From: Acidobacteriota bacterium
GTDB lineage: Bacteria; Acidobacteriota; Holophagae; Holophagales; Holophagaceae
NCBI GenBank assembly: GCA_016192145.1
Contig: JACPUT010000004.1
Coordinates: forward strand, 62,001-126,000
Reading direction: 5' to 3'
Length of the DNA stretch: 64,000 bases
The notes beneath the pieces were generated by a model. The model was given only the letters and a program-made list of their open reading frames with translations. It did no database searches and was not told the DNA's origin. This document shows, piece by piece, positions 4,590 to 21,283 of the stretch (within the stretch, counting starts at the first letter, position 1; every line of letters starts with the position of its first letter). Position numbers and translations under genes: made by a program.

Positions 4590-5105
4590 ATGAGCTTCAG
4601 CATCCGCAAACTCGTCAACGCGAACGTCTACCTGAACGGCGTCAGCTACGCGGGGCTCGCTTCCGAAGTCACGCTGCCCGAGGTGAAGGCCATCACCAAG
4701 GACCACCAGCCCTCCTCCATGGCCGGGAAGATCAAGGTCCCCATGGGCCTCGACGAGATGACCCTCACCATCAAGGGGGACTTCGACGCCGCCTTCGTGG
4801 CCGCCAGCGCGGACATCTACCACGTCCAGCTTCTCCAGATCCGATGCAACCTGCCCGGCTACGACGAATCGGGGCGGGCCATCGAGCAGAGCGTGGTGGC
4901 CCACATCCGTGCGCTGCCCACCGGCCACAAGCCCGGCGCGGTGAAGGGCCAGGAGCCCTCTGAGATCGAATACACGTTCAATGTGTGGGCCTACAAGCTC
5001 GAAGTGGACGGCGTCCCGCTCTACGACCTGGGCCTCACCACGAACAAGCATCAGGTGCTCGGGAAGAACCTCCTCTCCACGGCTAACGACAACCTCGGCG
5101 TTTGA
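4590..5105 (+). CDS. Phage major tail tube protein (P2 FII family)
   Basis: 171 residues with ATG at 4590 behind GGGAGA. The opening (a Val-Asn-Ala-Asn-Val-Tyr strand and NGVSYAGLASEVTLPEVK) and the central MPMG-like segment KVPMGLDEMTLTIKG match the FII tail-tube family of P2-like phages, and the length is the family norm of about 170. The protein forms the inner tube inside the sheath. It is followed by the E/E' chaperone pair, as in P2. Confidence 0.93.
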   Translation: MSFSIRKLVNANVYLNGVSYAGLASEVTLPEVKAITKDHQPSSMAGKIKVPMGLDEMTLTIKGDFDAAFVAASADIYHVQLLQIRCNLPGYDESGRAIEQSVVAHIRALPTGHKPGAVKGQEPSEIEYTFNVWAYKLEVDGVPLYDLGLTTNKHQVLGKNLLSTANDNLGV

Positions 5106-5592: not shown

Positions 5593-8160
5593 TTGTCTGC
5601 ATCCTTTGAAGTCAGCCTGGTGCTCCGGACCACCGACGAGGCCTCCGGCGCCGTCAGTGCGGCCATGGCCAAGGCGGGGAGCGCCTCCAAGGCTGCAGGC
5701 ACCACCTCCGCCACCGCCTGGAGCAAGGCGACCTCGGGCATGGTGACCTTCGAGGCCTCGGTGACCCGGGCGGGGGCCGCCCTCAAGAAGACCGGTCAGG
5801 ACGGCGCCGATGGGGCCGACAAGGCGCGCCGCGCCGCCGAGCGCTACGCCAAGGCCCTCGACGATCTCCACGGCAAGGCGGGGGAGGTGGCCAGCAGCGT
5901 CCGCAACGCGGGCATGGTCGCCATGGGCGCGGGGGCCGCCACGGCCTATGGCGCCGGGAAGGCCATCCAGGCTTATGCCGAGATGGAATCCGTCATCACG
6001 CGGGCGCGGCTCCCCTTCATGCGCCGGGAGGGCACGGACCCGGTCTGGGACCAGATCCAGCCCATCATCGAGCGCCTGGGCCAGCAGCTCCCGGGCACCA
6101 CGGCGGACTTCTCGGAGATGGCGGGCTCCATGCGGGCCGCCGGGCTTGCCTCTACCGCCATCCGGGACGGAGGTCTGGAAGCCGCTGCCGCCCTCAAGAT
6201 CCTCGGCAACCTCACCAACGAGGAGGCGGGCGGCCTCACGGTCCAGATGAGCCGGGCGCTGGAGGTGGGCGGAAAGGACTTCCGCGCCTTCGCCAACCTC
6301 GTCCAGAAAACCTCCTTCGCCGCGGGCATCAGCATCCGGGAACTGGCCACGGCGATCCCTTACATGGGGCCGCAGTTCAAGGCCTTCGGCCTGACGGGCA
6401 TGGGCGGCGCCGAGGCCATGGGCACGGTGATGACCATGATGAAGGGCGCGGGCCTCAGCGGGAGCGAGATCGGCACCAGCATCGGCGAGCTGATGGACAG
6501 CCTGCCGATCCTCCAGGAGCGCTTGGTCCTCGGCCGGGGCTGGAAGGCAAAGGAAGGCGCCGCCCTCCTGCAGAAATACTCCTTGGGCAACCTGGGCGCG
6601 CAGCTCTTCGACGAGAAGGGCGAGCTTCGAGGCGCGGATCCCCTGGCGAAGATGGCGAATGTGGTGATGGTCTTCGACCGCATCAACAAGTCCATCACCA
6701 GTACCAAGGACAAGCAGCTGCTCTTCACCGAGCTGCTCGGCGGGGTGGGCAAGCGGGCGGGCCTCAACTTCACGGCGGAGAACTGGAACGAGTCCCAGAA
6801 GAAGCTCCAGGATCAGGCCGACATCCAGGTCCGCATGGACGAGGTCATGAAGACCCTTTCCGCGCAGTGGGAGGCCCTCACGGGCACCGGGAAGATCTTC
6901 CTCATGACCGTGGTGGAACCCCTGGTTCCGCTTCTGAAATGGATCACCACCGGCCTGAACACGCTCACTGGCAAGCTCTCGGATTGGCACAAGGCCCACC
7001 CCAAGCTCACCGGAGCCATCGGGGGCAGCATCGGCGTGGCGGCCTTTTTGGCGCTGACGGTGGGAGGTCTCCTCATCGGCGTGGGGCTGCTGGGGAAGGT
7101 CCTGCTCTCGTCCGTGAAGGGCATGTCCGACTGGCGGAACCTGATCAGCCTCAGCCGGATCGCGGTGAAGGGGCTGGGCACCGACGCGGCCCTCAGCACC
7201 GCCAAGCTCGGCGCCCTGAAGCTGGCGGAAGGCGGCGGAGGCGTCACCAGCGGCCTCGCGTCCCTGTTCGGCGGAGGGGCCTCGGGCCTGCTCGGGGGCC
7301 TCGGCGGCTGGTTCAGCGGCCTGGGCAGCGCCGTCGCGGGCGTGATCGGGGCCATCACATGGCCCGTGGCCCTCGCCATCGTCGCGGCGGCGATGCTGAT
7401 CTACAAATACTGGGAACCCATCAAGGCCTTCTTCAAAGGCATCTGGTCCGGGATCCAGATGGACATGGAACCCATCCTGGGCCTCTGGGAATCCTTCAAG
7501 GAAGCGATCCTCGGCGTCTGGGAGGCCGTATCGAGCCTCATCGAGGTCTTCATCCCCCTGAAGAGCGGCCAGGAGGGCGTCAATGAAGCCTTCGGGGCCG
7601 GGCAGGTGGTGGGGCTGGCCCTGGCCTGGGCCTTCAAGGCCATCCTCGCCACGGCCACTTACGTCGCCAAAGGCGTGGAGGCCGTGGTCATCGTCGTGGC
7701 GAGCCTCATCGATGCGGTGGTGACACTGGTGAAGTCCCTCTATCACTTGGCCACGGGCAATGTAAAGGCGGCCGGAACGGATTGGTCCTCCTTCTCCGAC
7801 CGCTTCTGGAAGCGGCTGGAGAACAGCTCCATGAACCCCGACAAGCCCGCCCAGAAGGCGGAGCTGGCCGCCGGGCCCGCGCGGCTGCCCAAAACCCTGG
7901 GCGGATCCCCCAGAACCCCAATGGATGCGCCCGGCGAAGACGGGAAAGGGAAACCCTCCTTCCCTGCGGGGCCGCTGATGGCCCAGCCCCAGGCCGCCCC
8001 CGTCTCGCTGACCTACAGCCCCAAGGTGGAGCTGAAGGGCGCCGCGGGACCGGACGACGAGGCGCGCATCATGGCCATCCTGCGAAAGCATGGCGATGAG
8101 TTCGCCGACATGATCCAGCAGCGCTTCGACCGCAAGCTCCGCTGGAATGGAGCGCGCTGA
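5593..8160 (+). CDS. Phage tail tape measure protein
   Basis: 855 residues from a TTG start with a GGAG site 8 nt upstream. The N-terminal third is an Ala/Gly/Lys-rich coiled-coil region; residues 100-430 hold the conserved tape-measure domain (repeated helical segments such as GAKAIQAYAEMESVITRA and a PGTTADFSEMAGSMRAAGL stretch). Around residues 470-510 and 560-600 are hydrophobic stretches, the second reading GVIGAITWPVALAIVAAAM, as usual for proteins that may insert in the inner membrane during DNA ejection. Length sets tail length. It sits directly after E/E' and overlaps gpU by TGATG, the standard P2 order. Confidence 0.92.
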   Translation: MSASFEVSLVLRTTDEASGAVSAAMAKAGSASKAAGTTSATAWSKATSGMVTFEASVTRAGAALKKTGQDGADGADKARRAAERYAKALDDLHGKAGEVASSVRNAGMVAMGAGAATAYGAGKAIQAYAEMESVITRARLPFMRREGTDPVWDQIQPIIERLGQQLPGTTADFSEMAGSMRAAGLASTAIRDGGLEAAAALKILGNLTNEEAGGLTVQMSRALEVGGKDFRAFANLVQKTSFAAGISIRELATAIPYMGPQFKAFGLTGMGGAEAMGTVMTMMKGAGLSGSEIGTSIGELMDSLPILQERLVLGRGWKAKEGAALLQKYSLGNLGAQLFDEKGELRGADPLAKMANVVMVFDRINKSITSTKDKQLLFTELLGGVGKRAGLNFTAENWNESQKKLQDQADIQVRMDEVMKTLSAQWEALTGTGKIFLMTVVEPLVPLLKWITTGLNTLTGKLSDWHKAHPKLTGAIGGSIGVAAFLALTVGGLLIGVGLLGKVLLSSVKGMSDWRNLISLSRIAVKGLGTDAALSTAKLGALKLAEGGGGVTSGLASLFGGGASGLLGGLGGWFSGLGSAVAGVIGAITWPVALAIVAAAMLIYKYWEPIKAFFKGIWSGIQMDMEPILGLWESFKEAILGVWEAVSSLIEVFIPLKSGQEGVNEAFGAGQVVGLALAWAFKAILATATYVAKGVEAVVIVVASLIDAVVTLVKSLYHLATGNVKAAGTDWSSFSDRFWKRLENSSMNPDKPAQKAELAAGPARLPKTLGGSPRTPMDAPGEDGKGKPSFPAGPLMAQPQAAPVSLTYSPKVELKGAAGPDDEARIMAILRKHGDEFADMIQQRFDRKLRWNGAR

Positions 8161-8933
8161 TGGCCTTCCCCGGCACCGGCATCCCCTACGTTCCCACCGC
8201 CGATCACGTCGGCCAGACGCTGAAGGATCTGGCCCCGCAGATCGCCGCGGAATATGCACATGTCCTCTGGGAGGCCTATAACAACGCGACGCGGAAGGCC
8301 CGGACTCAGGCCCTGATCCTGGATCCCCGGCTGGAGATCGCACTGGCGCTGGCTTCTGAAGCGCTGAATCGTTTCCAGGCCGTTTCCCTGCCCAGCCCGC
8401 CCGAGCCGGAACTTCCGCAGGTCTGGGGCGCCCTGGGCGATCTCACGTTCAGCATCCTCACGGCCCCGGACGCGCTGGAGATCCAGGATGGCGTGACCTA
8501 CGCGCGGCAGACGCTGATCTGCGAAAAGCCACATCTGCAGTGGACCGGCTATGAGCTGCAGGAGATCAAGCTGCCGCTCCGCTGGCACCATCTGGTTCAT
8601 CCGGACATCGAGGGGCAGCTGAAGGCCCTGCTCCAGGCCATGAACGAGCGCCAGGTGCTACCCCTCGTCATCGGAGGCCAGGATGGGACCGGGCTCTATG
8701 CGGGCTCTTTCGTGATCCCCCGCATCTCCCGCCAGGTGACGCGCCTCCTGCCGGACGGCAGGATCGCCGCCGTGGATCTCAGCGTGGAGCTGCTGGAATG
8801 GGTGGGTGACCCCGAACTGGTCATGGGGAAGGCCGCGCCCGCTGTCCGCGCCAAGTCCGGCCCCGCGCCCGCATCGCGCGCCCAAAGCCACTACGATCCC
8901 GCCACCCGCCAGATCCTCCCGGGAGGCAAGTGA
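8160..8933 (+). CDS. Phage tail protein U (P2 gpU family) with N-terminal extension
   Basis: 257 residues, starting at the ATG overlapping the tape-measure stop. Residues about 95-215 match the gpU family: LGDLTFSILTAPDALE, then YELQEIKLPLRWHH, then a Val-Ile-Gly-Gly segment and FVIPRISRQVTRLLPDGRI. P2 gpU is about 160 residues. Here about 90 extra residues precede the domain, helical and Ala/Leu-rich, so this is either a lineage-specific extension or a fusion of a small upstream protein. gpU is the tail terminator/completion protein in P2-like tails. Confidence 0.85.
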   Translation: MAFPGTGIPYVPTADHVGQTLKDLAPQIAAEYAHVLWEAYNNATRKARTQALILDPRLEIALALASEALNRFQAVSLPSPPEPELPQVWGALGDLTFSILTAPDALEIQDGVTYARQTLICEKPHLQWTGYELQEIKLPLRWHHLVHPDIEGQLKALLQAMNERQVLPLVIGGQDGTGLYAGSFVIPRISRQVTRLLPDGRIAAVDLSVELLEWVGDPELVMGKAAPAVRAKSGPAPASRAQSHYDPATRQILPGGK

Positions 8934-9163
8934 TGGAGGAATACCTCCTGCATCGCACTGTGGACGGAGACCGCTGGGACCTCCTCGCCCTGCGCTACTA
9001 CGGCGAGGGGAGCGCCTACGGCCTTCTCCTCCAGGCCAACCCCGAGGTGCCCTTCACGCCCCTGATCCCGCCCGGCCTCAGCCTTCGGATCCCCATCCTG
9101 GAGGGCGCTGCCCTGAACCCGGCCCCAGTGCCTTCCGACAGCGAGGTCTACCCATGGCTGTGA
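8933..9163 (+). CDS. Phage tail protein X (LysM-like)
   Basis: 76 residues. ATG 8933 shares its A with the gpU stop. The pattern YLLHRTVDGDRWDLLALRYYG followed by a Leu-Leu-Gln-Ala-Asn-Pro turn and PPGLSLRIP is that of the P2 gpX family, a small LysM-like protein needed for tail completion. The stop overlaps the beginning of the next gene by 10 nt. Position between U and D is as in P2. Confidence 0.9.
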   Translation: MEEYLLHRTVDGDRWDLLALRYYGEGSAYGLLLQANPEVPFTPLIPPGLSLRIPILEGAALNPAPVPSDSEVYPWL

Positions 9164-10227
9164 ACCATGTGGCCGAGGCGCGCGCCGAGGTGATCTACGA
9201 GGGCCTGGACTGCTCAGCGCTCGTCACGCCCTACTTGCACCAGCTCGTCTACGTGGACCACCTGCATGGCGAGGAGCCCGATGCGCTGGAGGTGGAGCTG
9301 GGGGACCGCCAGCGGCTGTTCCAGGGGCCCCTGGCGCCCCGGCGCGGCGCCGCCCTGAGCTTCCGCTTCGGCCAGCGCCCCGACAACCGCTTCGAGAGCG
9401 GCCAGGGCTTCGAGATCGACGAGATCGAAGTGAATGGTCCGCCGGACGTGGTTCGCCTCCGCTGCCTCGGCAACGTGCCCAGCAGCCGCATCCACGACCA
9501 GGTGAGCTACGCCTGGGAGGGCGTGAGCCTGGAGCAGATCGCCCGCTCCCTCGCCGCCAAGCACGGTCTGGCGGTCTCCACGGAATCCACCGGCATCGCG
9601 CTGCGGCGCCTGACGCAGCACGACGAGTCCGACCTGGCCTTCCTCAAGCGCCTGGCGAAGGACTACGGCCTGGTATGCAGCCTCAAGGGGGACAAACAGG
9701 GAACGCCCGCCGTCCTCCTGCTCCTGAAGGCCGAATCCCTGGAGCGGCGCCCGCCGGTCTATGAGCTGGGCCGGTCTGCCTGCACCCGCTACCGCTTCCG
9801 CGACAAGATCCAGCCGGGATCGCGGGGCAGCTACACCCGCTACTTCGACAGCTCCCTCAAGGATCTCGTCGAGTTCGAGGTGAAGGTGAGCCCCGACGAG
9901 GTCTTCGACGGCCTGCTGAAGAAGACCGTCCCCGGCTTGTGGGGAAGGTCCCAGCAGCTCCGGCATCGGCTTCGGGGCGGGCGGGCCAACGTGGAGGTCC
10001 ACGCCAAGCGGGCGCTGCGTTCCTCCAAGACCTTTGAGCACGAGGTCACCCTCACCTGCAGCGGCGAGCCTCGCCTGCGCTCCGGCGTAACCATCCTTCT
10101 GCCCGCGGACGGGGTGGACGGATGGGGCGCCAACGGGGGCACCTGGATCGTGCTCCACAGCCGCCACACGCTGAATGCGGACCAGGGCTACACCACCGAA
10201 ATCACGCTTAGGAAGGTGCCGCGATGA
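9154..10227 (+). CDS. Phage late control / baseplate hub protein D (gpD)
   Basis: 357 residues from ATG 9154, chosen over a much longer in-frame extension because it gives the normal family length and couples to gpX. Features of the gpD/gp27-like hub: an N-terminal beta domain with a YVDHLHGEEPDALEVEL segment, the HDQVSYAWEGVSLEQIARSLA helix, and the QHDESDLAFLKRLAKDYG motif characteristic of the family. In P2-like and Mu-like tails this hub joins tube and spike. The ATGA overlap with gpV indicates coupled translation. Confidence 0.9.
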   Translation: MAVNHVAEARAEVIYEGLDCSALVTPYLHQLVYVDHLHGEEPDALEVELGDRQRLFQGPLAPRRGAALSFRFGQRPDNRFESGQGFEIDEIEVNGPPDVVRLRCLGNVPSSRIHDQVSYAWEGVSLEQIARSLAAKHGLAVSTESTGIALRRLTQHDESDLAFLKRLAKDYGLVCSLKGDKQGTPAVLLLLKAESLERRPPVYELGRSACTRYRFRDKIQPGSRGSYTRYFDSSLKDLVEFEVKVSPDEVFDGLLKKTVPGLWGRSQQLRHRLRGGRANVEVHAKRALRSSKTFEHEVTLTCSGEPRLRSGVTILLPADGVDGWGANGGTWIVLHSRHTLNADQGYTTEITLRKVPR

Positions 10228-10777: not shown

Positions 10778-11164
10778 ATGGCGCCCGCCCCCGCACCTTC
10801 CTCGCCCTATTGGCAGCTCGCCCTCGGCCGGACGGGAGAGGCCGTCACCGGCCTAGACGAGATCGCCCAGAGCATCGCCCTCATCGTCCAGACGCCGCTG
10901 GGCAGCCTTCCCGGCCAACCGGACCTGGGATGCGATGTGCTTGGCCAGCTGGACCGGCCCCTCACGGCGGCCGTGCCCGGGATGGTCCAATCGGTCTTCG
11001 AGGCCCTGCGGAAATGGGAGCCTCGGATCGACGTGCGCCGCGTGGGCGTAACGCCCGTGCGCCTCGGCGCCGTGATTCTCTCCGTCGTCTGGGCGCCTAA
11101 AGGAACCGCCACTTCCAACGATGGGGAAGTCGGCCAGCTCATCCTCCTCGGGAGCGCGACATGA
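10778..11164 (+). CDS. Baseplate wedge protein W (gp25-like)
   Basis: 128 residues with ATG 10778 behind an AGGAGGG site. The core has the gp25/gpW pattern: a long helix with SIALIVQTPLGSLPGQPDLGCDV, an arginine-rich EPRIDVRRV segment and a final beta strand. Family members are lysozyme-like-fold baseplate wedge proteins. ATGA overlap with gpJ follows, as in P2 (V-W-J-I). Confidence 0.88.
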   Translation: MAPAPAPSSPYWQLALGRTGEAVTGLDEIAQSIALIVQTPLGSLPGQPDLGCDVLGQLDRPLTAAVPGMVQSVFEALRKWEPRIDVRRVGVTPVRLGAVILSVVWAPKGTATSNDGEVGQLILLGSAT

Positions 11165-12270
11165 CGCTGCCGGTGCTGCCCGTCCCCCAGTTCACCGACA
11201 CGGACTCCGCCCGGATCACGGCGGACCTGGTGAGCCAGTACGAGGCCATTACCGGCCGCACGCTTTATCCGGCCCAGTACGAGCGCCTCTTCATCAGCCT
11301 CCTCGTCTACTTGACCGCGCTGAACCGGAATGCCCTCCAGCAGGCCTGTCTTCAGCAGCTCGTGCTCTTCGCCACGGGAGCGGCGCTGGATCATCGCGGA
11401 ATCGAGATGGATACGCCCCGCCTCGGAGCCCTTCCGGCCCGGACCACCCTGCGCGTTACCGTGGCCCCCTCTCCGCAGGACACGGTGATCGGCGCGGGCT
11501 TCCAGGTCCAAAGCAAGGACGCCAGGACCATCTTCATCACCCTCCAGACCCTCGTGATCCCTGCGGGCCTCACCGAGGGGGAGGCGGCGGCCCAGTGCCA
11601 GACGCCGGGCAGCGCGGGCAACGGCTACCAGCCGGGGGACGTCTGCCAGGCCATGGATCTGCTTCCCGCCGTCGTGGGCGTCCTGAACATCACCCAGACC
11701 GGCGGCGGCGCGGACCCGGAGGGCGACGACCATTACCGGGAGCGCATCCTCGAAGCCCCCAGCCGCTTCTCCGTGGCGGGCCCCCGTGACGCCTACCGGG
11801 CGCTCGCCTTCAGCGTCCATCCCGACATCCTGGACGTGGCCGTGGATTCCCCCGCGCCCGGCGTGGTGGCCGTCTATGTGCTGACGGGCGCGGGGCTGCC
11901 GACGCCGGAGATCCTGGCCCTGGTTCAGGCAGCCCTTTCGGCAGACACCGTCCGGCCCCTCTGTGATGCCGTGGACGTGCTCGCCCCTCTCCCGATGTCC
12001 TTCACTATCCACGCGGACCTCACCCTCTACGCCAGCGCCGATCCCGTGACCACCCTGGCGGCAGCCCAGGTCGCCGCCGAGGCCTACCGCCAGAATCGGC
12101 AGGGAGGCCTCGGGCGGGATCTGGTGGACAGCCAGCTCCTCAAGGCCCTGTCGGTGGACGGCGTCTACCATGTGCAGCTCCTGGGATGGGCCAACCAGGT
12201 GCTCGGCCCAAACCAGTGGGCCGCCTGCACGGGCATCACTCTCGCTGTCACAGGGATGGCCGATGGTTGA
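11161..12270 (+). CDS. Baseplate assembly protein J
   Basis: 369 residues starting in the ATGA overlap with W. It has the gpJ family pattern: an N-terminal helix, LALNRNALQQACLQQLVLFATGAALDHRG type stretch (residues about 55-80), a GNGYQPGDV-type turn, and GGADPEGDDHYRERI, the signature of the J family. Length fits phage J proteins (300-390). J anchors the baseplate wedge to W and I in the tail. Confidence 0.9.
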   Translation: MTLPVLPVPQFTDTDSARITADLVSQYEAITGRTLYPAQYERLFISLLVYLTALNRNALQQACLQQLVLFATGAALDHRGIEMDTPRLGALPARTTLRVTVAPSPQDTVIGAGFQVQSKDARTIFITLQTLVIPAGLTEGEAAAQCQTPGSAGNGYQPGDVCQAMDLLPAVVGVLNITQTGGGADPEGDDHYRERILEAPSRFSVAGPRDAYRALAFSVHPDILDVAVDSPAPGVVAVYVLTGAGLPTPEILALVQAALSADTVRPLCDAVDVLAPLPMSFTIHADLTLYASADPVTTLAAAQVAAEAYRQNRQGGLGRDLVDSQLLKALSVDGVYHVQLLGWANQVLGPNQWAACTGITLAVTGMADG

Positions 12271-13156
12271 CGCGGCCCTCCTTCCCCCTTCACTGCGAGA
12301 CCCGAGGGGCCTCGCCTTCCTGCAGCTCTGCGGCGCGGCCTCCGCGATGGATCTGGCCCAGGCTCGGATCCTCTGGATCGACCAGGCACCTAGCGCGGCG
12401 CTTCCGGCTCTGGCTCTTCAAGCGGGCCTGCACACTGATCCTGGTTGGCTCCTGGCCACCGGAGACGGCGAGCGCCGCGCGATCCTGAAGGAATCACTGA
12501 GCCTCGCCAAACGCCGGGGCACGCCCTGGTCCATCCAGCGGGCGCTGGCGCTGTCCGGCTGGCCGGGCATGCGCCTGGAGGAGCGACTCCCGCCCCGCAC
12601 CCTGGACGGCTCCTGGATCCTGGACGGCGTGGTGGGGCTTGACCAGATGGACAACTGGGCGCGCTTCCGGGCGATCCAACCCCTTCCAGAGAAGCCTGTC
12701 ACGCCCGAAATCCTGGCCCTTCTCATCCGCGTCATCGAGGCCTGGAAGCCGCTGCGCTGCCACCTAGAGGGCATCGCCTTCACCCTGGACCTCGCCAGCG
12801 AGGTCCGCGGCGGCCTCCTCGACGGATCCTGGCGCCTGGACGGCTCCTTCATCCTCTGCGGGGTCCGCCTGGAGGAGATCGTCCAGGTCCGCTTTGGCCA
12901 GGGCGGAGTGACGGCCGGTTTGGCGCACGCCCTCCCGATCCCGGCCGTGGACAACTCCCAGGCCCAGGCGGGCTGGGTGAGGGTCCGTTTCGAGATCGAC
13001 GCCCTCACGGCAAACGGCGAACAGATCGACACCTTCGCGCTCACCACCTCGGAGGGGATCGAGATCACGCGGATTACCCGCGCCCCCATCACCAAGACCG
13101 CCGGGCTGGCCCTTGCCTGCACCTGGGTCATTCACACGAACGGAAGAACCCCATGA
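12263..13156 (+). CDS. Phage tail protein I (baseplate), extended
   Basis: 297 residues. ATG 12263 is chosen because it overlaps the J stop by 8 nt and gives an N-terminus (PPSLRDPRGLAFLQLCGA) consistent with gpI family proteins; further in-frame sequence upstream lies inside J. The N-terminal two thirds carry the tail-protein-I pattern with KRRGTPWSIQRALALSGWPG and repeated LDGSW.LDG beta turns at about residues 115 and 190. The last 90 residues look like a separate beta domain. It connects baseplate and fibre genes. Confidence 0.8.
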   Translation: MVDAALLPPSLRDPRGLAFLQLCGAASAMDLAQARILWIDQAPSAALPALALQAGLHTDPGWLLATGDGERRAILKESLSLAKRRGTPWSIQRALALSGWPGMRLEERLPPRTLDGSWILDGVVGLDQMDNWARFRAIQPLPEKPVTPEILALLIRVIEAWKPLRCHLEGIAFTLDLASEVRGGLLDGSWRLDGSFILCGVRLEEIVQVRFGQGGVTAGLAHALPIPAVDNSQAQAGWVRVRFEIDALTANGEQIDTFALTTSEGIEITRITRAPITKTAGLALACTWVIHTNGRTP

Positions 13157-13437
13157 TGTACCGCTACCTCGGCCCCCTCTCCGGCGTGACGTTGAATGAC
13201 GTCGAGGGACCCGCGCTCGAAGTCCGCCGCCATGGAGACGGCGCCCCGGACGCCTTCGCCGAGTCCTTCATCCTCTTCCCCGGCGCGGAACTGCAGCTTC
13301 CAACGGGCCATCCCTACGTCGAGGCCCTTGAGGCCCAGGGCTGGCTGATCCCCGTCGAGATGCCCCGGCTGAAGGCTGCAACCAAGCCCGCCAAGTCCGC
13401 GAATGCCGCCCCCAAGCCTGCGGAGGCCGCCCAGTGA
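13153..13437 (+). CDS. Small hypothetical phage protein between gpI and tail fibre
   Basis: 94 residues, ATG 13153 overlapping the gpI stop. The first 75 residues look like a small beta domain (YRYLGPLSGVTLND, then ELQLPTGHPYVEALEAQGWL) and the last 20 are an Ala/Lys/Pro tail. I do not recognise a family with certainty. A similar small protein is commonly seen just ahead of fibre genes in Mu-like prophages. Its stop overlaps the fibre gene by 4 nt, so it belongs to the tail operon. Confidence 0.7.
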   Translation: MMYRYLGPLSGVTLNDVEGPALEVRRHGDGAPDAFAESFILFPGAELQLPTGHPYVEALEAQGWLIPVEMPRLKAATKPAKSANAAPKPAEAAQ

Positions 13438-15170
13438 CGAACCTCCAAGCCACACCCGGCTGGGACGACATCTACCAGCTCGAAGTCACGGACCCGGCCC
13501 AGGGCGGCCCCGGCGGTGTGCTCAACCGCCAGGCCCAGGCCCTGCTCAATCGCGCGGCCTACCTCCAGGAGCAGCTCCAGGGTGTGATCCAGACGCTGAC
13601 GGGGAAAGCCCCCCTGGTGCATCAGCACGACGCCAGCGCCCTCGTCAGCGGCGTTCTGGACCCCGCGCGGATCCCCGTCCTGCCCTCGCAGGCCACTGTC
13701 GTCAGCTCCGGCGGCCTCGCGGCCCTAACGGCCGCCCAGCAGGCAGAGATCATCCAGGGTGTAGTCGTCACCACCACCGACGGCTGGCGCTGGGTCTACA
13801 CGGGATCGGGCGACAAAACCGCCCAGGCCTCCTACATCCAGCTCGCCGATATCACGCCCGACTGGACGGCCATCCAGAACAAGCCCGGCCAGTTCCCGCC
13901 TTCGCCCCACGGCCACGCCATCGCGGACGTAGCAGGGCTCCAGCAGGAGCTGGACACCCTCGCGGCGGGGGCTTCCAATCCCCTCGGCAGCTGGCTCCGG
14001 GCCGTGGTGGGCAATCCCAACGGCACGGTGAATCTCTCCGCTGCCGCCCACGCGCGGCTCATCACCTACTTCTTCAACCTGCAGCCGGACGGCACCCTCG
14101 TCTGCGTGCGGCCCTGCTCCCTGTCTCTCTCCATCAGCGGTCGCGCCAACGGCAACTCCGGCGGCAACCAGGCCGTCTGGGATCTCTGGGTGAAGATCCT
14201 CAAGAACGGTGCCGAGCTGGCCTCCCAGTACGCCGAGGTGGGAACCAACGTCGGGCTCGACAGCTGGCTCACGGCCGCCGTCTCCGTCCCCGCCGACTTC
14301 CAGGCAGGAGACGTCCTCGCCTTCCAGCTCCTCCACGGCGGCAACGGGTCCAACAGCTCGGTGGCTACTTGCAGCGTGCTGCTGCTGCCCGGCATGAGCC
14401 TCCCGGCCCCCATCGCCCCGAGCCTGACCTGGACCACGCCCGCAAGCCTGGCCTTCAGCGTGGCCAACACGGAACCCACGCCCTACGTCCTCTCTTGGCC
14501 CCTGGGAGCCGCGGGCGGCACCGCACCCTACACCTTCAGCTGGATCGCTTCCACACTCACCAACCCCTCCATCAGTGGAACCACCTTCACCGGCCAGGCC
14601 GCCTCCGGCGGCTCCTTCACCACCACCCTGCGCGTCACTGACGCCGAGGGGCACACCGCCGACCTCACCATCGGGACCACCATCACCGTGACCACGAGCG
14701 GAGGCGGCGGGGGAGGCGGTGGCGGCGGCTGCTTCGCTCCATGGACCTGGATCCTCATGGCCGACGGAGCCCCCAAGCCCATCGAAGCGATTCGCCCCGG
14801 CGACCGCATCCGCACCTTCACTGAAGGGATGGAAGGGCCCGTGGAGGCGAGGGTCGAAGCTCTGCACGACCACGAGGGACGCTATTCGGTGTTGGAGCTG
14901 GAAGGCATCCTCGCAACGCCAGAGCATCCCTGGGCCCTTGCGGAGGGACGCTTCCTTCCCACCGGCGCGTTGAAGGAAGGGGACTCGCTCATGGCCTTGG
15001 ACGATCAAGGCACCGCTCTCGCTCCCACCCCGATGACGGCGGCGCCGCGCCGCGCAGGGACGCTCCCGCGGGTGCTCAACCTCAGCACCACGGCCCGCAC
15101 CTTCCAGGTCGCGGCCCGGCCCGAAGGCCCCTTCTTCCTCGTCCACAACATGAAGGCCCAAACCCTGTAG
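13434..15170 (+). CDS. Tail fibre protein ending in a Hint autoprocessing domain
   Basis: 578 residues. The N-terminus (WDDIYQLEVTDPAQGGPGG, then an NRQAQALLNRAAYLQEQ helix) is that of phage tail fibres that attach to a baseplate. A His-containing segment and beta-rich receptor region follow to about residue 420. Then comes a run of about ten glycines and, at Cys433, a Hint-type domain: CFAPWTWILMADG, KPIEAIRPGDRI, the block-B-like ATPEHPW and a C-terminal VHN followed by six residues. No homing endonuclease is present, so this resembles bacterial intein-like domains rather than a true intein. The fibre would be clipped or ligated at this site, but that is inference. Confidence 0.82.
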   Translation: MTNLQATPGWDDIYQLEVTDPAQGGPGGVLNRQAQALLNRAAYLQEQLQGVIQTLTGKAPLVHQHDASALVSGVLDPARIPVLPSQATVVSSGGLAALTAAQQAEIIQGVVVTTTDGWRWVYTGSGDKTAQASYIQLADITPDWTAIQNKPGQFPPSPHGHAIADVAGLQQELDTLAAGASNPLGSWLRAVVGNPNGTVNLSAAAHARLITYFFNLQPDGTLVCVRPCSLSLSISGRANGNSGGNQAVWDLWVKILKNGAELASQYAEVGTNVGLDSWLTAAVSVPADFQAGDVLAFQLLHGGNGSNSSVATCSVLLLPGMSLPAPIAPSLTWTTPASLAFSVANTEPTPYVLSWPLGAAGGTAPYTFSWIASTLTNPSISGTTFTGQAASGGSFTTTLRVTDAEGHTADLTIGTTITVTTSGGGGGGGGGGCFAPWTWILMADGAPKPIEAIRPGDRIRTFTEGMEGPVEARVEALHDHEGRYSVLELEGILATPEHPWALAEGRFLPTGALKEGDSLMALDDQGTALAPTPMTAAPRRAGTLPRVLNLSTTARTFQVAARPEGPFFLVHNMKAQTL

Positions 15171-15179
15171 GAGACCGCC

Positions 15180-15287
15180 ATGCCAGACCAACCCCAAGCC
15201 TGCTGCCGCTTCCAGGACATCGACCAAAGCCAAGAGCAGTTCAAAACGTCGGGGGTGCAGCCCTTCGAGGTGATGCCGAACTTGTGA
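15180..15287 (+). CDS. 35-residue ORF after the tail fibre
   Basis: ATG 15180 with AGGAG seven nucleotides upstream, overlapping nothing, ends at TGA 15287. The product is short, Gln- and Asp-rich and has a Cys-Cys pair at residues 8-9. It sits between the fibre stop and the terminator-like stem-loop and so would be the last gene of the tail operon. No homologue recognised. Good ribosome binding site and position favour a real gene; size alone argues for caution. Confidence 0.5.
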   Translation: MPDQPQACCRFQDIDQSQEQFKTSGVQPFEVMPNL

Positions 15288-15354: not shown

Positions 15355-15414
15355 CTGTTAGGCTATTGAAACGCCCCAGCCTGCCCTTGGATGGATGGAC
15401 CCAACGAGAGATCC

Positions 15415-18400
15415 ATGTCGATTCCCTTTTTTGAACATCCCATCCTCAACTCGCCCTATGAATATCCAGCCCGTCATTGGGAACTCGACGGTTCCGGCCA
15501 GCCTACTCAGCAGATCAGCGAGGCCCGGCGGAGGGCAGACTTCATCACCCCCATCCCGAAGCCCAAGAAGCGGAAAGGGAGCGGTGGAGAGCAGGGTCGC
15601 CTGATCCTTGACGAGGTTGAAGGCCTTTCGACCAAGGACCAAAAGTACGACCCCACCGCCATCATCAACGCGGTTCGCAGCCAGGTGGATGCGTGGCGTA
15701 AGCTCTCCGATCCCAAGGATTGGAAGGTCACACCGGAGACAGCGCGACTGCTCCAGCACTGGCGCCACCACGAATTCATGGGAGTCCGGCCATTCTTCTG
15801 CCAGGTAGAGGCGGTCGAGACCCTCATCTGGCTCACCGAAGTGGCCCCCCATGTTGGCAAAGCGGGAAGGGACTTCCTGGAGCACCTAGAGAACGCCAGC
15901 CGGGACGCCAACCCAGAGCTGATACGCATTGCCTTGAAATTGGCCACGGGCGCGGGGAAGACCACTGTGATGGCCATGGTCATCGCCTGGCAAACGATCA
16001 ATGCGGTCAGGTACCCTAACAAAAAGCGCTTCACCCGGGGTTTCCTTGTCGTGACGCCGGGGATCACCATCAAGGACCGGCTGCGGGTGCTCCAGCCCAA
16101 CGACCCTGATTCCTACTACGCCAGCCGTGAACTGGTGCCCAGCGACATGGTGGGTGACCTGGAACGAGCCAAGATCGTCATCACCAACTATCACGCCTTC
16201 AAACTGCGAGAACGGCTGGACCTCTCAAAGGGTGGACGATCCCTGCTCCAAGGCCGAGGCGAAGCCCTGAGCACCCTCGAAACCGAGGGACAGATGATCC
16301 AGCGCGTGATGCCGGATCTCATGGGCCTCAAGAACGTGCTGGTGCTGAATGACGAGGCCCATCACTGCTACCGCGAAAAGCCCGACGGAGACGAGGATCT
16401 GTCCGGCGATGAGAAGAAGGAAGCCGCAGAAAATAACGAGGCTGCCCGCCTCTGGATCTCCGGCCTCGAAGCGGTAAACCGTAAGCTGGGCCTGAACCGG
16501 GTCCTGGACCTCTCTGCCACACCTTTCTTCCTACGCGGTTCCGGCTATGCGGAAGGCACCCTGTTCCCATGGACCATGAGTGACTTCTCTCTCATGGACG
16601 CCATCGAGTGCGGCATCGTGAAGCTCCCGCGTGTGCCCGTAGCCGATAACATCCCCGGCGGGGACATGCCCATGTTCCGCAATCTCTGGGAGCACATCCG
16701 GAAGGACATGCCCAAGAAGGGGCGTGGGAAGGGGACCACGCTGGACCCCTTGAAACTGCCCACGCGCCTCCTGACCGCTCTTGAAGCCCTCTACGGCCAT
16801 TACCAGAAGACCTTCGATCTCTGGGAGAAGGCGGGCATCAAGGTTCCGCCCTGCTTCATCGTGGTCTGCAACAACACTTCCACCTCCAAGCTGGTCTACG
16901 ACTACATCTCCGGTTTCCACCGGGACAACGGTGATGGCACCACCTCCTTGGAGAACGGCCGTCTGGAGCTGTTCCGCAATTTCGATGATTACGGCAATCC
17001 CATCGCGCGCCCTCGCACTCTCCTGATCGACAGCGAACAGCTCGAATCCGGCGAGGCTCTGGACGACAACTTTCACACCATGGCCGCGGACGAGATCGAG
17101 CGGTTCCGTCGGGAAATCCTCGAACGAACCGGAGACATCCACCAGGCGGAGAATCTCACCGACCAGGATCTCCTGCGCGAGGCGATGAACACCGTGGGCA
17201 AGGTGGGTCGCCTGGGGGAATCCATCCGCTGCGTGGTCTCCGTTTCCATGCTTACGGAGGGGTGGGACACGAACACGGTCACCCACGTCCTGGGCGTGCG
17301 GGCTTTCGGCACTCAGCTTCTCTGCGAGCAGGTCATCGGCCGTGCCCTTCGTCGCCAGTCCTACGACCTTAACGAAGAGGGGCTCTTCAATGTGGAATAC
17401 GCCGATGTGCTCGGCATTCCCTTCGACTTCAACGCCAAGCCCGTGGTGGCACCCCCTCAGCCACCCCGGGAAACCATTCAGGTAAGGGCTGTCCGCCCTG
17501 AGCGTGACCATTTGGAGATCACCTTCCCGCGGGTGCAGGGCTACCGTGTGGAGCTTCCTGAAGAACGTCTGAGGGCCACCTTCAATGACGATTCCGTCCT
17601 GGTGCTCACGCCGGACCAGGTCGGCCCCTCCATCACCCGAAATGAAGGCATCATCGGCGAAAACGTGGACCTGAATCTGGTCCACACTCGGGATCTGCGC
17701 CCCTCCACCCTTCTCTTTCATCTCACGCAGCGGCTGCTCTACAACCACTGGCGGGAGCCTGGTACCGAGCCCAAGCTGCATCTCTTCGGCCAGCTCAAGC
17801 GGATCACCAAGGAGTGGTTGGATACCTGCCTCGTGTGCAAGGGGGAGACCTACCCGGCCCAGCTCATGTACCCGGAGCTGGCGGACATGGCCTGCGGGCG
17901 GATCACCAAGGCCATCAACGACGCCACCCAGGACACCCAGCCCATCAAGGCCCTGCTGGATCCTTACAATCCTGTCGGAAGCACAGCCCATGTGAAGTTC
18001 GCCACCTCCAAGACCGACCGCTGGGAGACCCATCCCGAGCGCTGCCACGTCAACTGGGTGATCCTGGACAGCGACTGGGAAGCGGAGTTCTGCCGCGTGG
18101 CGGAGAACCATCCGGCGGTAAGAGCCTACGTCAAGAACCACAACCTGGGCCTCGAAGTGCCCTACCTTTTCGGCGCCACGCCCAGGATCTACCGGCCTGA
18201 CTTCATCGTGAGGGTGGATGACGGTCGCGACCCCGAAGATCTCCTGAACCTCATTGTCGAGATCAAGGGCTACCGGGGGGAGGATGCCAAAGATAAAAAG
18301 CTCACCATGGATACGCGCTGGATCCCTGGCGTGAATCACCTGAAGGTCCACGGCCGCTGGGCCTTCGCGGAGTTCACCGAGGTCTACCAGATCGAAGCCG

Positions 18401-18480
18401 ATTTCCGGGCGAAGATCGAATCCGAATTCAACAAGCTCGTGGAATCTGCGATGGCCCAGCCTGTGGGACAAGGGAAATAA
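15415..18480 (+). CDS. Restriction enzyme, type III Res-like helicase-nuclease (BPTD_3080-like)
   Basis: 1021 residues from ATG 15415; the in-frame ATG at 15391 is possible. It combines an SF2 DEAD/DEAH motor with a C-terminal nuclease: Walker A ATGAGKTT at residues 177-184, DEAHH at 313-317, SATPFF motif III, a C-terminal motif with QVIGRALRR (motif VI), and a PD-ExK nuclease with Pro928-Asp929 and Glu949-x-Lys951. This is the architecture of type III restriction subunits. It would translocate or switch on DNA and cleave unmodified foreign DNA together with the methyltransferase encoded next, 1 nt downstream. The res gene comes first here, whereas the usual type III order is mod-res. Confidence 0.9.
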   Translation: MSIPFFEHPILNSPYEYPARHWELDGSGQPTQQISEARRRADFITPIPKPKKRKGSGGEQGRLILDEVEGLSTKDQKYDPTAIINAVRSQVDAWRKLSDPKDWKVTPETARLLQHWRHHEFMGVRPFFCQVEAVETLIWLTEVAPHVGKAGRDFLEHLENASRDANPELIRIALKLATGAGKTTVMAMVIAWQTINAVRYPNKKRFTRGFLVVTPGITIKDRLRVLQPNDPDSYYASRELVPSDMVGDLERAKIVITNYHAFKLRERLDLSKGGRSLLQGRGEALSTLETEGQMIQRVMPDLMGLKNVLVLNDEAHHCYREKPDGDEDLSGDEKKEAAENNEAARLWISGLEAVNRKLGLNRVLDLSATPFFLRGSGYAEGTLFPWTMSDFSLMDAIECGIVKLPRVPVADNIPGGDMPMFRNLWEHIRKDMPKKGRGKGTTLDPLKLPTRLLTALEALYGHYQKTFDLWEKAGIKVPPCFIVVCNNTSTSKLVYDYISGFHRDNGDGTTSLENGRLELFRNFDDYGNPIARPRTLLIDSEQLESGEALDDNFHTMAADEIERFRREILERTGDIHQAENLTDQDLLREAMNTVGKVGRLGESIRCVVSVSMLTEGWDTNTVTHVLGVRAFGTQLLCEQVIGRALRRQSYDLNEEGLFNVEYADVLGIPFDFNAKPVVAPPQPPRETIQVRAVRPERDHLEITFPRVQGYRVELPEERLRATFNDDSVLVLTPDQVGPSITRNEGIIGENVDLNLVHTRDLRPSTLLFHLTQRLLYNHWREPGTEPKLHLFGQLKRITKEWLDTCLVCKGETYPAQLMYPELADMACGRITKAINDATQDTQPIKALLDPYNPVGSTAHVKFATSKTDRWETHPERCHVNWVILDSDWEAEFCRVAENHPAVRAYVKNHNLGLEVPYLFGATPRIYRPDFIVRVDDGRDPEDLLNLIVEIKGYRGEDAKDKKLTMDTRWIPGVNHLKVHGRWAFAEFTEVYQIEADFRAKIESEFNKLVESAMAQPVGQGK

Positions 18481-18481
18481 A

Positions 18482-21283
18482 ATGGCAAAGAATCCCGCAA
18501 GCCCAAAGAGCGTCGAAACCCTCATCCACGAGGACGCCACCCGCAAGAACATCCCCACCGCCGAGTTTCAGTCCGTGGTTCAGAAGGACCACCAGGATCC
18601 CATTCGGGTAGCCTACGAGCGGCGAAACCGCGACCTGGATCCCCAGCTCGTTTGGCGCGGGAAGGACGAGCAAGACTGGTCCGACCTCGTGGTGCAAGCT
18701 CCCCCCCTCTACATCCAGGAGAAGGTCCATCCCAAGGCTCTTATCGATGACCTCATGCGCCAGACTAGGGAGGCCCGCCCCCAGGAACCTGGCGCCCTCT
18801 TCGACCTCTACGCAGACTTCAACGGATTGCCTGAAGGGGCGGAAAAGACGGACTTCTACCAATATGAGGCGCATTGGCAGAACCGAATGATCCTGGGGGA
18901 TAGCCTCCAGGTCATGGCGTCCTTGGCCGAACGCGAGGGGCTTCGGGGGAAGGTGCAATGCATCTACTTCGATCCACCCTACGGGATCAAGTTCAACTCC
19001 AACTTCCAATGGTCTACCACCAGTCGGGATGTGAAGGACGGGAATGTGGGCCACATCACGAGAGAACCGGAACAAGTGAAAGCGTTCCGGGATACATGGC
19101 GGGATGGGATTCACTCTTACCTCACCTACCTCCGAGACCGGCTGACTGTGGCGCGGGACTTATTAACGGATTCTGGTTCAATCTTTGTGCAGATTGGGGA
19201 AGAGAACGTACATCGCGTGCGGGCAGTGATGGATGAGGTGTTTGGGGTCGATAACTGCATCAACCAGATTACTTTTCTCAAGACGAGCAGCAGTACTTCT
19301 GATTATCTAGGGAATGTCTGCGATTACCTTCTCTGGTATGGAAAGAGAAGGGAAGCACTGAAGTTCCGAGAACCGTTCTACGCCAAAGAATTAGGTTCTG
19401 GATCATTTGAAGCTTACAACAAGGTTCGGTATCCAGACGGTACCGTAAGGCCACTCGTGGAGTTGACGGAAAAGGAGCGAGTCGACGCCGACATTATTAG
19501 GTTCGACAACATCACCTCTCAGAGCATCGGTCGAGACAAAGGTGAGGGAGCTGCTTCTTGGTTCCCTGTGAAAATCGAAGGGCGTGAGATTTTGCCGAAT
19601 CAAAAAGTTCGGTGGAAAACCAATCAACAAGGAATGGCTAGGCTTCAGAAAGCAGGTCGATTAAATGCATCGAAGAACAGCCTGAGCTATGTAAGACGAC
19701 TTCACGATTTCATTGCAGCAAGTTTTCATCACATTTGGACAGACACGGTTATTTCTGGATCGTCGCTCGACAAAAATTATGTTGTCGAGACCCTTCCACT
19801 AGTCGTTCAGCGTTGTCTGCTCATGACTACTGATCCAGGCGACCTCGTCCTCGACCCCACCTGCGGCTCCGGTACAACCGCCTACGTCGCGGAGCAATGG
19901 GGCCGCCGGTGGATCACCATCGACACCTCCCGCGTGGCCCTTGCCTTGGCCCGCGCCCGCATCATGGGGGCCCGCCACCCCTATTACCTCCTGGCGGACT
20001 CCAAGGAGGGCCAGGAGAAGGAAGCAGAGATCACGCGCACGGTGCCTTCCTCCAAGCCCACCCACGGCAACATCCGCCGCGGCTTCGTCTACGAGCGGGT
20101 GCCCCACATCACTCTCAAAAGCATCGCCAACAATGCGGAGATCGATGTCATCTGGGAGAAGTTCCATGAACAGCTGGAGCCTCTCCGCGCCCAACTCAAC
20201 ATGACCCTGGGCAAAACCTGGGAGGAGTGGGAGATCCCCCGCCAGGCCGAAGCCAAGTGGCCCGAGGCGGTCAGGAAGCTCCACGCCCAATGGTGGGAAC
20301 GGCGCATCACCCGTCAGAAGGAGATAGACGCCTCCATCGCCGCCAAGGCCGAGTTTGAGTACCTCTACGATAAGCCCTACCAGGACCGGAAGAGGGTTCG
20401 TGTGGCGGGCCCCTTCACGGTGGAGAGCCTCTCACCGCACCGCATGCTGGCCCTGGGCGAGAATGACGAATTGATCGACGGGGCTTCCGAAGCGGCGGTG
20501 GCCTACCGGGAGGAGCACGACTTCGCCCAGATGATCCTGGAGAACCTGAGGTCTGCTGGCGTCCAGCAGGCCCACAAGGAGGATAAGATCGCCTTCACGT
20601 CGCTGACGCCTTGGCCGGGCCGCTATATCTGCGCCGAAGGCCGCTATCAGGACAGCGAAGGCATCGAGCGGCGGGCTGGGATCTTTGTCGGTCCAGAATT
20701 CGGCACCGTCGCAAAGCCGGATCTGGTGTCCGCAGCCCGGGAGGCCGGAGACGCGGATTTCGATGTGCTCATCGCCTGCGCCTTCAGCTACGACGCCCAT
20801 TCCGCCGAGTTCTCCAAGCTCGGCCGCATCCCCGTGCTCAAGGCCCGCATGAATGCGGATCTGCACATGAGCGAAGACCTTAAGAACACGGGCAAGGGGA
20901 ACCTCTTCGTCATCTTCGGCGAGCCGGACATCGAGATTCAGGAAGTGCTCGGGGGGCAGGTCCAAGTCAAGGTGAAGGGCGTAGACGTCTTCGACCCCTC
21001 CACCGGCAAAGTCCGAAGCGACTCCGCCGATGGCATCGCCTGCTGGTTCATCGACACCGACTACAACGAAGAAAGCTTCTTCGTCCGCCATGCCTACTTC
21101 CTGGGCGCCAGCGATCCCTATAGCGCCCTCAAGACGACCCTTAAGGCGGAAATCAACCAGGAGGCGTGGGAGAGCCTGTACTCCGACACCTCAAGGCCCT
21201 TTGCCAAACCTAGCTCGGGTCGCATTGCCGTGAAGGTCATTAACCACCTGGGGGATGAGGTAATGAAGGTATTCAGGGTGTAG
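18482..21283 (+). CDS. Site-specific DNA methyltransferase (type III Mod-like)
   Basis: 933 residues, starting directly after the res stop. DPPYG at residues 164-167 is the catalytic motif IV of an N6-adenine beta-class enzyme and DPTCGSGTT at 458-466 is the S-adenosylmethionine-binding motif I, so the order IV ... I is that of beta-class Mod proteins. Between them, residues about 220-450, lies the target recognition region, which is clearly richer in A/T and in rarer codons than the flanks. The 460-residue C-terminal part beyond the methylase core is longer than in EcoP15I-type Mod. Partner of the preceding nuclease. Confidence 0.92.
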   Translation: MAKNPASPKSVETLIHEDATRKNIPTAEFQSVVQKDHQDPIRVAYERRNRDLDPQLVWRGKDEQDWSDLVVQAPPLYIQEKVHPKALIDDLMRQTREARPQEPGALFDLYADFNGLPEGAEKTDFYQYEAHWQNRMILGDSLQVMASLAEREGLRGKVQCIYFDPPYGIKFNSNFQWSTTSRDVKDGNVGHITREPEQVKAFRDTWRDGIHSYLTYLRDRLTVARDLLTDSGSIFVQIGEENVHRVRAVMDEVFGVDNCINQITFLKTSSSTSDYLGNVCDYLLWYGKRREALKFREPFYAKELGSGSFEAYNKVRYPDGTVRPLVELTEKERVDADIIRFDNITSQSIGRDKGEGAASWFPVKIEGREILPNQKVRWKTNQQGMARLQKAGRLNASKNSLSYVRRLHDFIAASFHHIWTDTVISGSSLDKNYVVETLPLVVQRCLLMTTDPGDLVLDPTCGSGTTAYVAEQWGRRWITIDTSRVALALARARIMGARHPYYLLADSKEGQEKEAEITRTVPSSKPTHGNIRRGFVYERVPHITLKSIANNAEIDVIWEKFHEQLEPLRAQLNMTLGKTWEEWEIPRQAEAKWPEAVRKLHAQWWERRITRQKEIDASIAAKAEFEYLYDKPYQDRKRVRVAGPFTVESLSPHRMLALGENDELIDGASEAAVAYREEHDFAQMILENLRSAGVQQAHKEDKIAFTSLTPWPGRYICAEGRYQDSEGIERRAGIFVGPEFGTVAKPDLVSAAREAGDADFDVLIACAFSYDAHSAEFSKLGRIPVLKARMNADLHMSEDLKNTGKGNLFVIFGEPDIEIQEVLGGQVQVKVKGVDVFDPSTGKVRSDSADGIACWFIDTDYNEESFFVRHAYFLGASDPYSALKTTLKAEINQEAWESLYSDTSRPFAKPSSGRIAVKVINHLGDEVMKVFRV
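19150..19830 (+). other. Low-GC segment in the methyltransferase target recognition region
   Basis: From roughly 19150 to 19830 the sequence is much richer in A/T, with codons such as TTA, ATT, AAA and AGA, than the surrounding methylase gene, while the reading frame continues unbroken. It coincides with the segment between DPPY and the AdoMet motif, the normal site of the target recognition domain. This pattern suggests exchange of the specificity module by recombination. Confidence 0.7.

Follow-up and report, generated by a model that had tools for sequence, protein, structure and literature searches.

Introduction

Hint domains act through an established chemistry, in which an N–S acyl shift at the Cys1 junction gives a thioester and the terminal asparagine can cyclise. 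In phages, intein-like domains have usually been regarded as parasitic on genes of replication and packaging. The type A BIL domain of Clostridium thermocellum (PDB 2lwy) has the Hint fold, Cys1, the block B histidine and a C-terminal His-Asn pair, and possesses neither a reliable +1 nucleophile nor an endonuclease. Type A BILs with His-Asn and without a +1 nucleophile mostly cleave, and ligation by way of a free amine is possible for them as well (PMC4031507). In Tetrahymena, BIL2 of the BUBL polyubiquitin locus (6tmm, 6y75) joins the C-terminus of the upstream part to a lysine side chain of the downstream part by an ATP-independent isopeptide bond (PMC8616854). Zinc activates BIL2. Domains of the S74 or endosialidase type, which are fibre chaperones, lie at the C-termini of phage fibres, and S74 is autocleavable. 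HINT peptidases are described as never associated with the T6SS or PVC injection systems (Zhang et al. 2012, PMC3482391), and the open-access papers that we found on phage Hint domains or inteins deal with TerL, helicases or reductases and leave tail proteins aside.

Here we analyze a Hint domain at the end of a prophage tail fibre encoded in a window of 64,000 nucleotides (the whole stretch of DNA under analysis) from an Acidobacteriota genome. It shares the fold and sequence features listed for 2lwy, which is its best match in both sequence and fold; it differs in lying at the extreme C-terminus of a fibre, after an oligoglycine, and in having a six-residue lysine-containing tail in place of a C-extein domain. 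BIL2, the second-best fold match, is a ciliate domain with ubiquitin-like exteins, whereas the window has an Ig-like phage fibre domain and the six-residue tail; the lysine ligation of BIL2 is the mechanism that we propose for the window domain. The S74 domains resemble it in position and mode of working, but they are unrelated in fold and chemistry, and the window domain is not one of them.

Results

The fibre gene closes the tail module of a Mu-like prophage

The fibre gene (13434–15170, + strand, 578 aa) is the last gene of a tail module in which all the assigned genes lie on the + strand. The module encodes a tail sheath (3063–4490; PF04984, E = 2.6e-16), an FII-like tail tube (4590–5105; PF04985, E = 1.3e-33), a tape measure protein (5593–8160; PF10145, E = 2.9e-14), a P2 gpU-like tail protein (8160–8933; PF06995, E = 9.5e-21), a gpD-like baseplate hub (9157–10227; PF05954, E = 2.7e-7), a Baseplate J-like protein (11161–12270; PF04865, E = 2e-46) and a P2 gpI-like tail protein (12260–13156; PF09684, E = 1e-13). 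Further upstream on the same contig there are genes for a Mu-type transposase, a repressor, the Mu portal, gpF, a virion morphogenesis protein and the Mu gpT major head protein. Since these head and transposition genes are of Mu type, the element was taken to be a Mu-like prophage with a P2-like tail, and the upstream transposase, repressor, portal and head genes rule out a tailocin. The Mu gpF-like protein of the prophage (L010:2122-3327, G000:C3) has a PBECR2 nuclease-like domain at its C-terminus (PF18810, E = 4e-8).

The reading frame of the fibre is open, and its GTG start shares the sequence GTGA with the stop of the upstream gene. Immediately 3' of it lies a 35-codon open reading frame (15180–15287) with a good ribosome site (TAGGAG), and at 15391–21283 there follow a helicase-like gene (1,029 aa) and a DNA methyltransferase-like gene (933 aa), which on reading look like a type III restriction-modification pair.

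Residues 1–94 (13434–13715), the N-terminal or baseplate-attachment region, matched the PHROG tail-fibre families 10372, 3100 and 4209 with E-values of 3e-12 to 9e-11 (up to 2e-10 over the PHROG tail-fibre matches of the N-terminus), and tblastn searches with the N-terminus also found the N-termini of phage tail fibres and tailspikes. Its location within a contractile tail module agrees with these matches, and the original prediction of a tail fibre was thus upheld. Residues 133–183 (13830–13982), with the motif W..I.NKPG.FPPSPHGH, resemble the tail collar fibre gp4 of PDB entry 9d93 (phmmer, E = 2.8e-8), and residues 324–424 (14403–14705) form an Ig-like domain related to the phage decoration proteins 8zvi and 5lxk (phmmer, E = 7e-5 to 1e-3) and to the Hoc-like PHROG 2973.

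A linker of ten glycines (residues 423–432, 14700–14729), of a kind that recurs in unrelated phage tail proteins, leads to the Hint domain (residues 433–572, 14730–15149), and the predicted scissile bond is Gly432-Cys433. Cys433 (14730–14732), residue 1 of the Hint domain and its predicted nucleophile, is invariant in alignments. It is followed by a block A-like motif, CFAPWTWILMADGAPKPIEAIRPGD, and by a block B-like motif, ATPEH, of which the part T495-P-E-H498 (14916–14927) includes the catalytic His498, likewise invariant. The domain ends in LVHN, where His571-Asn572 (15144–15149) is the site of asparagine cyclisation predicted from the sequence and the alignments. The +1 residue is methionine, and the six-residue tail MKAQTL (15150–15167), with Lys574 at position +2, runs straight into a TAG stop. 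All the sequence elements on which the original prediction relied are present in the open reading frame, including the absence of a C-extein of normal size and of an endonuclease, for which the 140 residues of the Hint part leave no room.

Residues 433–572 belong to the Hint family

In single-sequence Pfam searches every Hint-type match fell under the curated cut-off. Vint was the best (E = 2e-4; 21.6 bits against a cut-off of 27 bits), and Hint, Hint_2 and PT-HINT were weaker. A profile built from two sequences, the window domain and a second copy in the same genome, matched the solved BIL domain 2lwy (E = 3e-6). When this pair was compared with a profile of seven independent phage Hints, from which the window sequence had been left out, the two aligned over the full length from Cys to Asn (99.1% probability, E = 1.5e-18). 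The expected profile-level recognition as Hint thus failed at the level of Pfam cut-offs and succeeded in profile–profile comparison, and the missed cut-off is a matter of scoring threshold and not a biological feature.

The AlphaFold2 model of residues 420–578 (14-row alignment; pLDDT 71.6, pTM 0.64) adopted the Hint fold that had been anticipated. Its quality was medium, and the linker and the six-residue tail were not modeled with confidence. The best PDB match of the model by Foldseek was 2lwy (E = 2.5e-7, TM(target) 0.66), followed by Tetrahymena BIL2 (6tmm, 6y75), Hedgehog (1at0) and inteins. The domain therefore meets the criteria of the Hint superfamily, namely a horseshoe all-beta fold (in the model), Cys433 at position 1 and a TxxH block B, and also the sequence criteria of type A BILs, namely a C-terminal H571-N572 and the absence of a +1 nucleophile; the N- and C-terminal autocleavage with minor ligation that marks this class is only inferred for it. 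From the predicted fold and the profile comparisons, residues 433–572 are a member of the Hint family, nearest to the BIL domains and without an endonuclease.

Other assignments were rejected. The six-residue tail, the methionine at +1 and the lack of a C-extein of normal size do not fit a class 1 intein, nor does the appending of the module at a natural C-terminus in the hub family described below. Six residues after the Hint part leave no sterol-recognition region of a Hedgehog (Hog) domain and no toxin domain of a PT-HINT polymorphic toxin. An S74 chaperone would require the S74 fold with a Ser-Lys catalytic pair; there was no S74 Pfam match in the fibre, and the modeled fold is that of Hint.

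Relatives in the same genome and phylum

The genome's second copy (P0003) forms the end of a 1,101-aa protein. Its Hint domain is 50% identical to that of the window (E = 7.6e-31) and ends in VHN-IKIQTM, and the gene lies near a weakly sheath-like gene. A second Hint with the same kind of ending makes the window feature more than chance. In another genome of the same family (G024), a 713-aa tail protein encoded beside Baseplate_J and sheath initiator genes has the arrangement Gly7-Thr-Gly-Cys...AHN-MIKVLLN, and the arrangement recurs in its relative G026, apparently divided between two contigs. In view of the reported absence of HINT peptidases from T6SS and PVC systems, Hint carriers on contractile tails are noteworthy. 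Two genomes from another family of the phylum encode phage-type proteins ending in ...VSN-AKALA and in GGSGGTGGT-Cys...AHN-AKSLDI. The serine before asparagine in the former (G177) means that the penultimate histidine is not absolutely conserved. The glycine run is missing from the second copy, from the Erwinia phage group described below and from others, so the linker is not required.

Searches of the host family revealed no relatives of the window fibre that lack the Hint domain, and the window Hint used as a single protein gave no matches in IMG/VR, which suggests that its exact subfamily is rare. The sole match in a GTDB scan, in Rhodobacterales (L084), was a 33-residue stretch without a Hint open reading frame and was taken as chance. 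UvrD-like helicases of 1,100 aa from the host family that matched Hint were true inteins and were set aside, as were the Hints of TerL, polymerases and helicases in viral contigs. UvrD/PcrA-type helicases of the host family often have an intein at the VVGDEDQ site (L024–L030, L035, L038, L040).

The glycine–Hint junction recurs on phage tail-tip proteins

We scanned IMG/VR with a DNA pattern for Gly4-Cys-Phe-x-x-Gly-Thr, using the same pattern with Ala4 as the control. The Gly4 pattern occurred in at least 120 stretches and, among the matches listed, a Hint domain was recognized by HMM in 110 of 120 (73 of the first 80 loci and 37 of the remaining 40), whereas the control gave six stretches and no Hint. 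By PHROGs the carriers included the central tail fibre J (E = 1e-132 and 1e-115), a gpL-like hub (E = 5e-49), a gpI-like tail assembly protein (E = 2e-25) and virion structural families. Judged from sequence, the glycine–Hint junction is a recurrent design on tail-tip proteins of many unrelated phages. The original prediction had called such domains rarely described; this holds for the literature searched, whereas sequence records show a common architecture.

In most carriers the module is C-terminal and leaves 3–18 residues after it, and it is N-terminal in some gpJ-like tail tip proteins (L057, L060, L137, L143, L190). In L057 and L060 it is flanked by two similar glycine-rich stretches. Eighteen loci (L127, L139, L145, L149 and 14 others) have a glycine run and a Hint-like N-terminal half, and no recognizable His-Asn end (...NVNILNA); they are perhaps a class on phage proteins similar to the B-type BILs. 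Tandem Hints were seen in three loci. A 968-aa phage structural protein (L042:4816-7722, IMGVR_UViG_3300032053_000038) has two joined by VHN-Tyr-Cys, which are preceded by an N-terminal part and followed by a laminin-G-like C-terminal part; in L049:7497-8423 the link is VHN-IKSLPGPT-Cys and the protein ends in VHNK; in L123 it is VVHN-Lys-Gly8-Cys. A Ruminococcus phage (L082, NatCom_28775) has genes that combine LXG-toxin-like N-termini, Hint and C-terminal toxin-like domains, and these genes are polymorphic-toxin-type cargo on phages.

The gpL-like hubs of IMG/VR have the arrangement ...QDKEIIWGRSSSNT-Gly-run-Cys-Hint-HN-KKD.... Their homologues without Hint, from cultured Roseobacter phages and from the E. 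coli phages JenP1 and 9g, occupy the same position between the distal tail protein and gpJ, and end in ...WGRKSS, ...WGGS or ...WGRSAG or shortly after. The contrast is clear-cut: the module of the hub family is an addition to the natural C-terminus by way of a glycine linker, a placement unlike that of inteins, and the predicted cut at Gly-Cys would restore the end of the Hint-less relatives plus a short linker.

Hint domains on the tail proteins of cultured jumbo phages

In tblastn searches with phage Hint queries, about 50 jumbo-phage records from Erwinia, Dickeya and Yersinia proved to encode collagen-like tail proteins that contain an Ig-like domain and carry a Hint at the C-terminus; Alcaligenes and Salmonella records and phage NCTB supplied further carriers. 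Phage NCTB has two proteins, with Gly4-Cys and Gly6-Cys junctions, and also a free-standing 153-aa Hint-like gene (L094:698-1159, SBV38304) that adjoins tail genes, lacks the usual Cys1 start and ends in NGILVHN-KVD. The jumbo-phage proteins (Y3 gp110, Alexandra, Yoloswag, Dickeya AD1, Yersinia fHe-Yen9-02, NCTB) share the Ig-like domain and the C-terminal Hint with the window fibre and have tails of 7–12 residues after the Hint. They differ from it in having a collagen-like stalk where the window fibre has its own N-terminal part and, in the Erwinia members, in having no glycine run. We found mention of the jumbo-phage tail Hint only in a database note, the record of Erwinia phage Y3 being annotated as 'putative phage tail protein, contains intein domain'.

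Cys1, the block B Thr and His, and His-Asn did not vary among the 17 distinct Erwinia-group sequences, in which the +1 residue was Thr in 16 and Val in one. Cys and Asn were also retained in the independent tail-protein families examined, so that the expected conservation of the two ends was confirmed. The median dN/dS (47 pairs) was 0.105 over the Hint and 0.118 over the rest of the protein; on these codon comparisons, the jumbo-phage Hint is under purifying selection.

The C-terminal tails contain lysine

Lysine was observed in the short tail after the asparagine in all of 22 families, that is, in every short tail found, against 7.7 expected. The expectation was derived only from same-length C-termini of other open reading frames in the same IMG/VR loci; as regards the few genomic families, open reading frames of the window itself had a similar lysine rate, 0.33, in their last six residues. 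When the set was reduced to 18 families, the control probabilities multiplied to 1.4e-9, and arginine was not enriched, being present in 1/18 against 5.6 expected. A held-out test on 40 loci gave lysine in 15/15 new distinct tails, with 6.8 expected. As a check for a general property of Hints, those with longer C-terminal parts were inspected, and only 7/15 had lysine within the first six residues. The +1 residue was Ser or Thr in four of the 22 families and Cys in none. The statistic treats the families as independent, whereas ancestry is partly shared and some tails are similar, and the probabilities are therefore not exact. Conservation of the AEK tail in the Erwinia group may have another cause, since its codons overlap a Shine-Dalgarno-like GGAGAA of the next gene, and the lysine signal gains only weak support from these phages. 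The preference for Lys over Arg points, by inference, to the amine rather than the charge, and lysine may matter for reasons besides a role as acceptor.

Discussion

Taking the chemistry of type A BILs (PMC4031507) and BIL2 (PMC8616854) as the analogy, we favour, with some reserve, the reading that the window fibre ends in a BIL-type Hint cap, which would remove itself by way of an oligoglycine thioester, perhaps with lysine resolving it, so that the fibre would end in oligoglycine or be welded to a lysine. The analyses above show the fold, the catalytic residues, the recurrence on tail-tip proteins, the purifying selection, the C-terminal placement and the tail lysine; the activity is inferred, and there are no biochemical or virion data. 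After folding, Cys433 would attack the Gly432-Cys433 bond by an N–S acyl shift aided by His498, so that the oligoglycine linker would end in a thioester, and cyclisation of Asn572 could free the six-residue tail. Without Cys, Ser or Thr at +1, ordinary intein splicing is blocked, and another nucleophile would have to resolve the thioester. Were this water, the fibre would end in oligoglycine; were it an amine, the tail lysine would be the prime candidate, and the predicted product a Gly-to-lysine isopeptide bond, which could lie within the chain, between fibre chains or to a neighbouring tail protein. Autocleavage at Gly-Cys is the part of this inference that we hold to be probable, its timing being likewise inferred, while lysine as the acceptor is put forward only tentatively. 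It remains doubtful, although conceivable, that tailed phages have a widespread ATP-independent, ubiquitination-like tail-tip chemistry, in which a Hint-made oligoglycine thioester is joined to a lysine of the protein's own tail, a neighbouring chain or the host surface and so cross-links or attaches tail-tip proteins or fibres.

The Hint could instead assist folding or trimerisation as a C-terminal chaperone and detach itself by cleavage after assembly in the manner of S74 (endosialidase-type) domains, without ligation, the glycines being only a flexible, accessible cleavage linker. Autocleavable S74 domains have the same position on T5-type lateral tail fibres (PMC4728585), and the conserved catalytic residues and the natural end that a Gly-Cys cut would restore in the gpL-like hub suit this explanation as well. 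However, carriers that are not fibres (the gpI-like assembly protein, the hub, the gpJ-like N-terminus) need no fibre chaperone, and the invariant tail lysine is left unexplained, so that we consider it rather unlikely. That the domain is a retained folded tip with a binding role, such as receptor recognition, and processes nothing, would suit its location at the distal end of the fibre and the fact that cleavage has not been shown. Yet Cys1, the block B His and the Asn are kept across highly diverged carriers, and a receptor binder would be expected to diversify its surface rather than to preserve the residues of autoprocessing together with a lysine tail; this is improbable. The suggestion in the original prediction that the module varies the receptor-binding tip also finds no support, since the sequence after the Asn is short and lysine-containing, with no variable domain.

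True inteins are frequent in phages, as the TerL, helicase and polymerase matches show, and occur in UvrD-type helicases of the host family, so a degenerate or parasitic mini-intein might have landed at the ends of tail genes and been tolerated. The module sits, however, at natural C-termini and not in conserved active-site motifs, it has neither endonuclease nor +1 nucleophile, it is under purifying selection, and the pattern of linker, Hint and lysine recurs, all of which makes this origin very improbable. We give still less credence to a polymorphic-toxin-like release module whose toxin has been lost. PT-HINT was among the weak Pfam matches, and Hint with C-terminal toxin-like domains does occur on Ruminococcus phages, but every short-tail family has tails of 2–18 residues without a toxin domain, the analysis turned up no close relative that continues into a toxin domain beyond the Asn, no immunity-like gene was recognized after the window fibre, and the reported absence of HINT from T6SS and PVC systems (PMC3482391) speaks against it.

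The Hint family is known. As far as the open-access literature goes, its form on phage tail-tip proteins, placed C-terminally, linked by glycines and tailed with lysine, is new, no description having been found there (subscription papers and preprints were outside the search). Here the Hint fold serves as a module at the C-termini of host-contacting tail parts, in Mu-like prophages, lambda-like siphophages and jumbo myophages, with a Gly-Hint-Lys signature that is reproducible. The Gly-Hint-Lys module could supply compact C-terminal ligation tags, and both ligation and cutting are open to test on existing cultured phages. Should the self-removing cap ligate, viruses would encode an isopeptide chemistry that needs no energy input; should it merely cut, it would represent an unrecognized class of tail-maturation protease.
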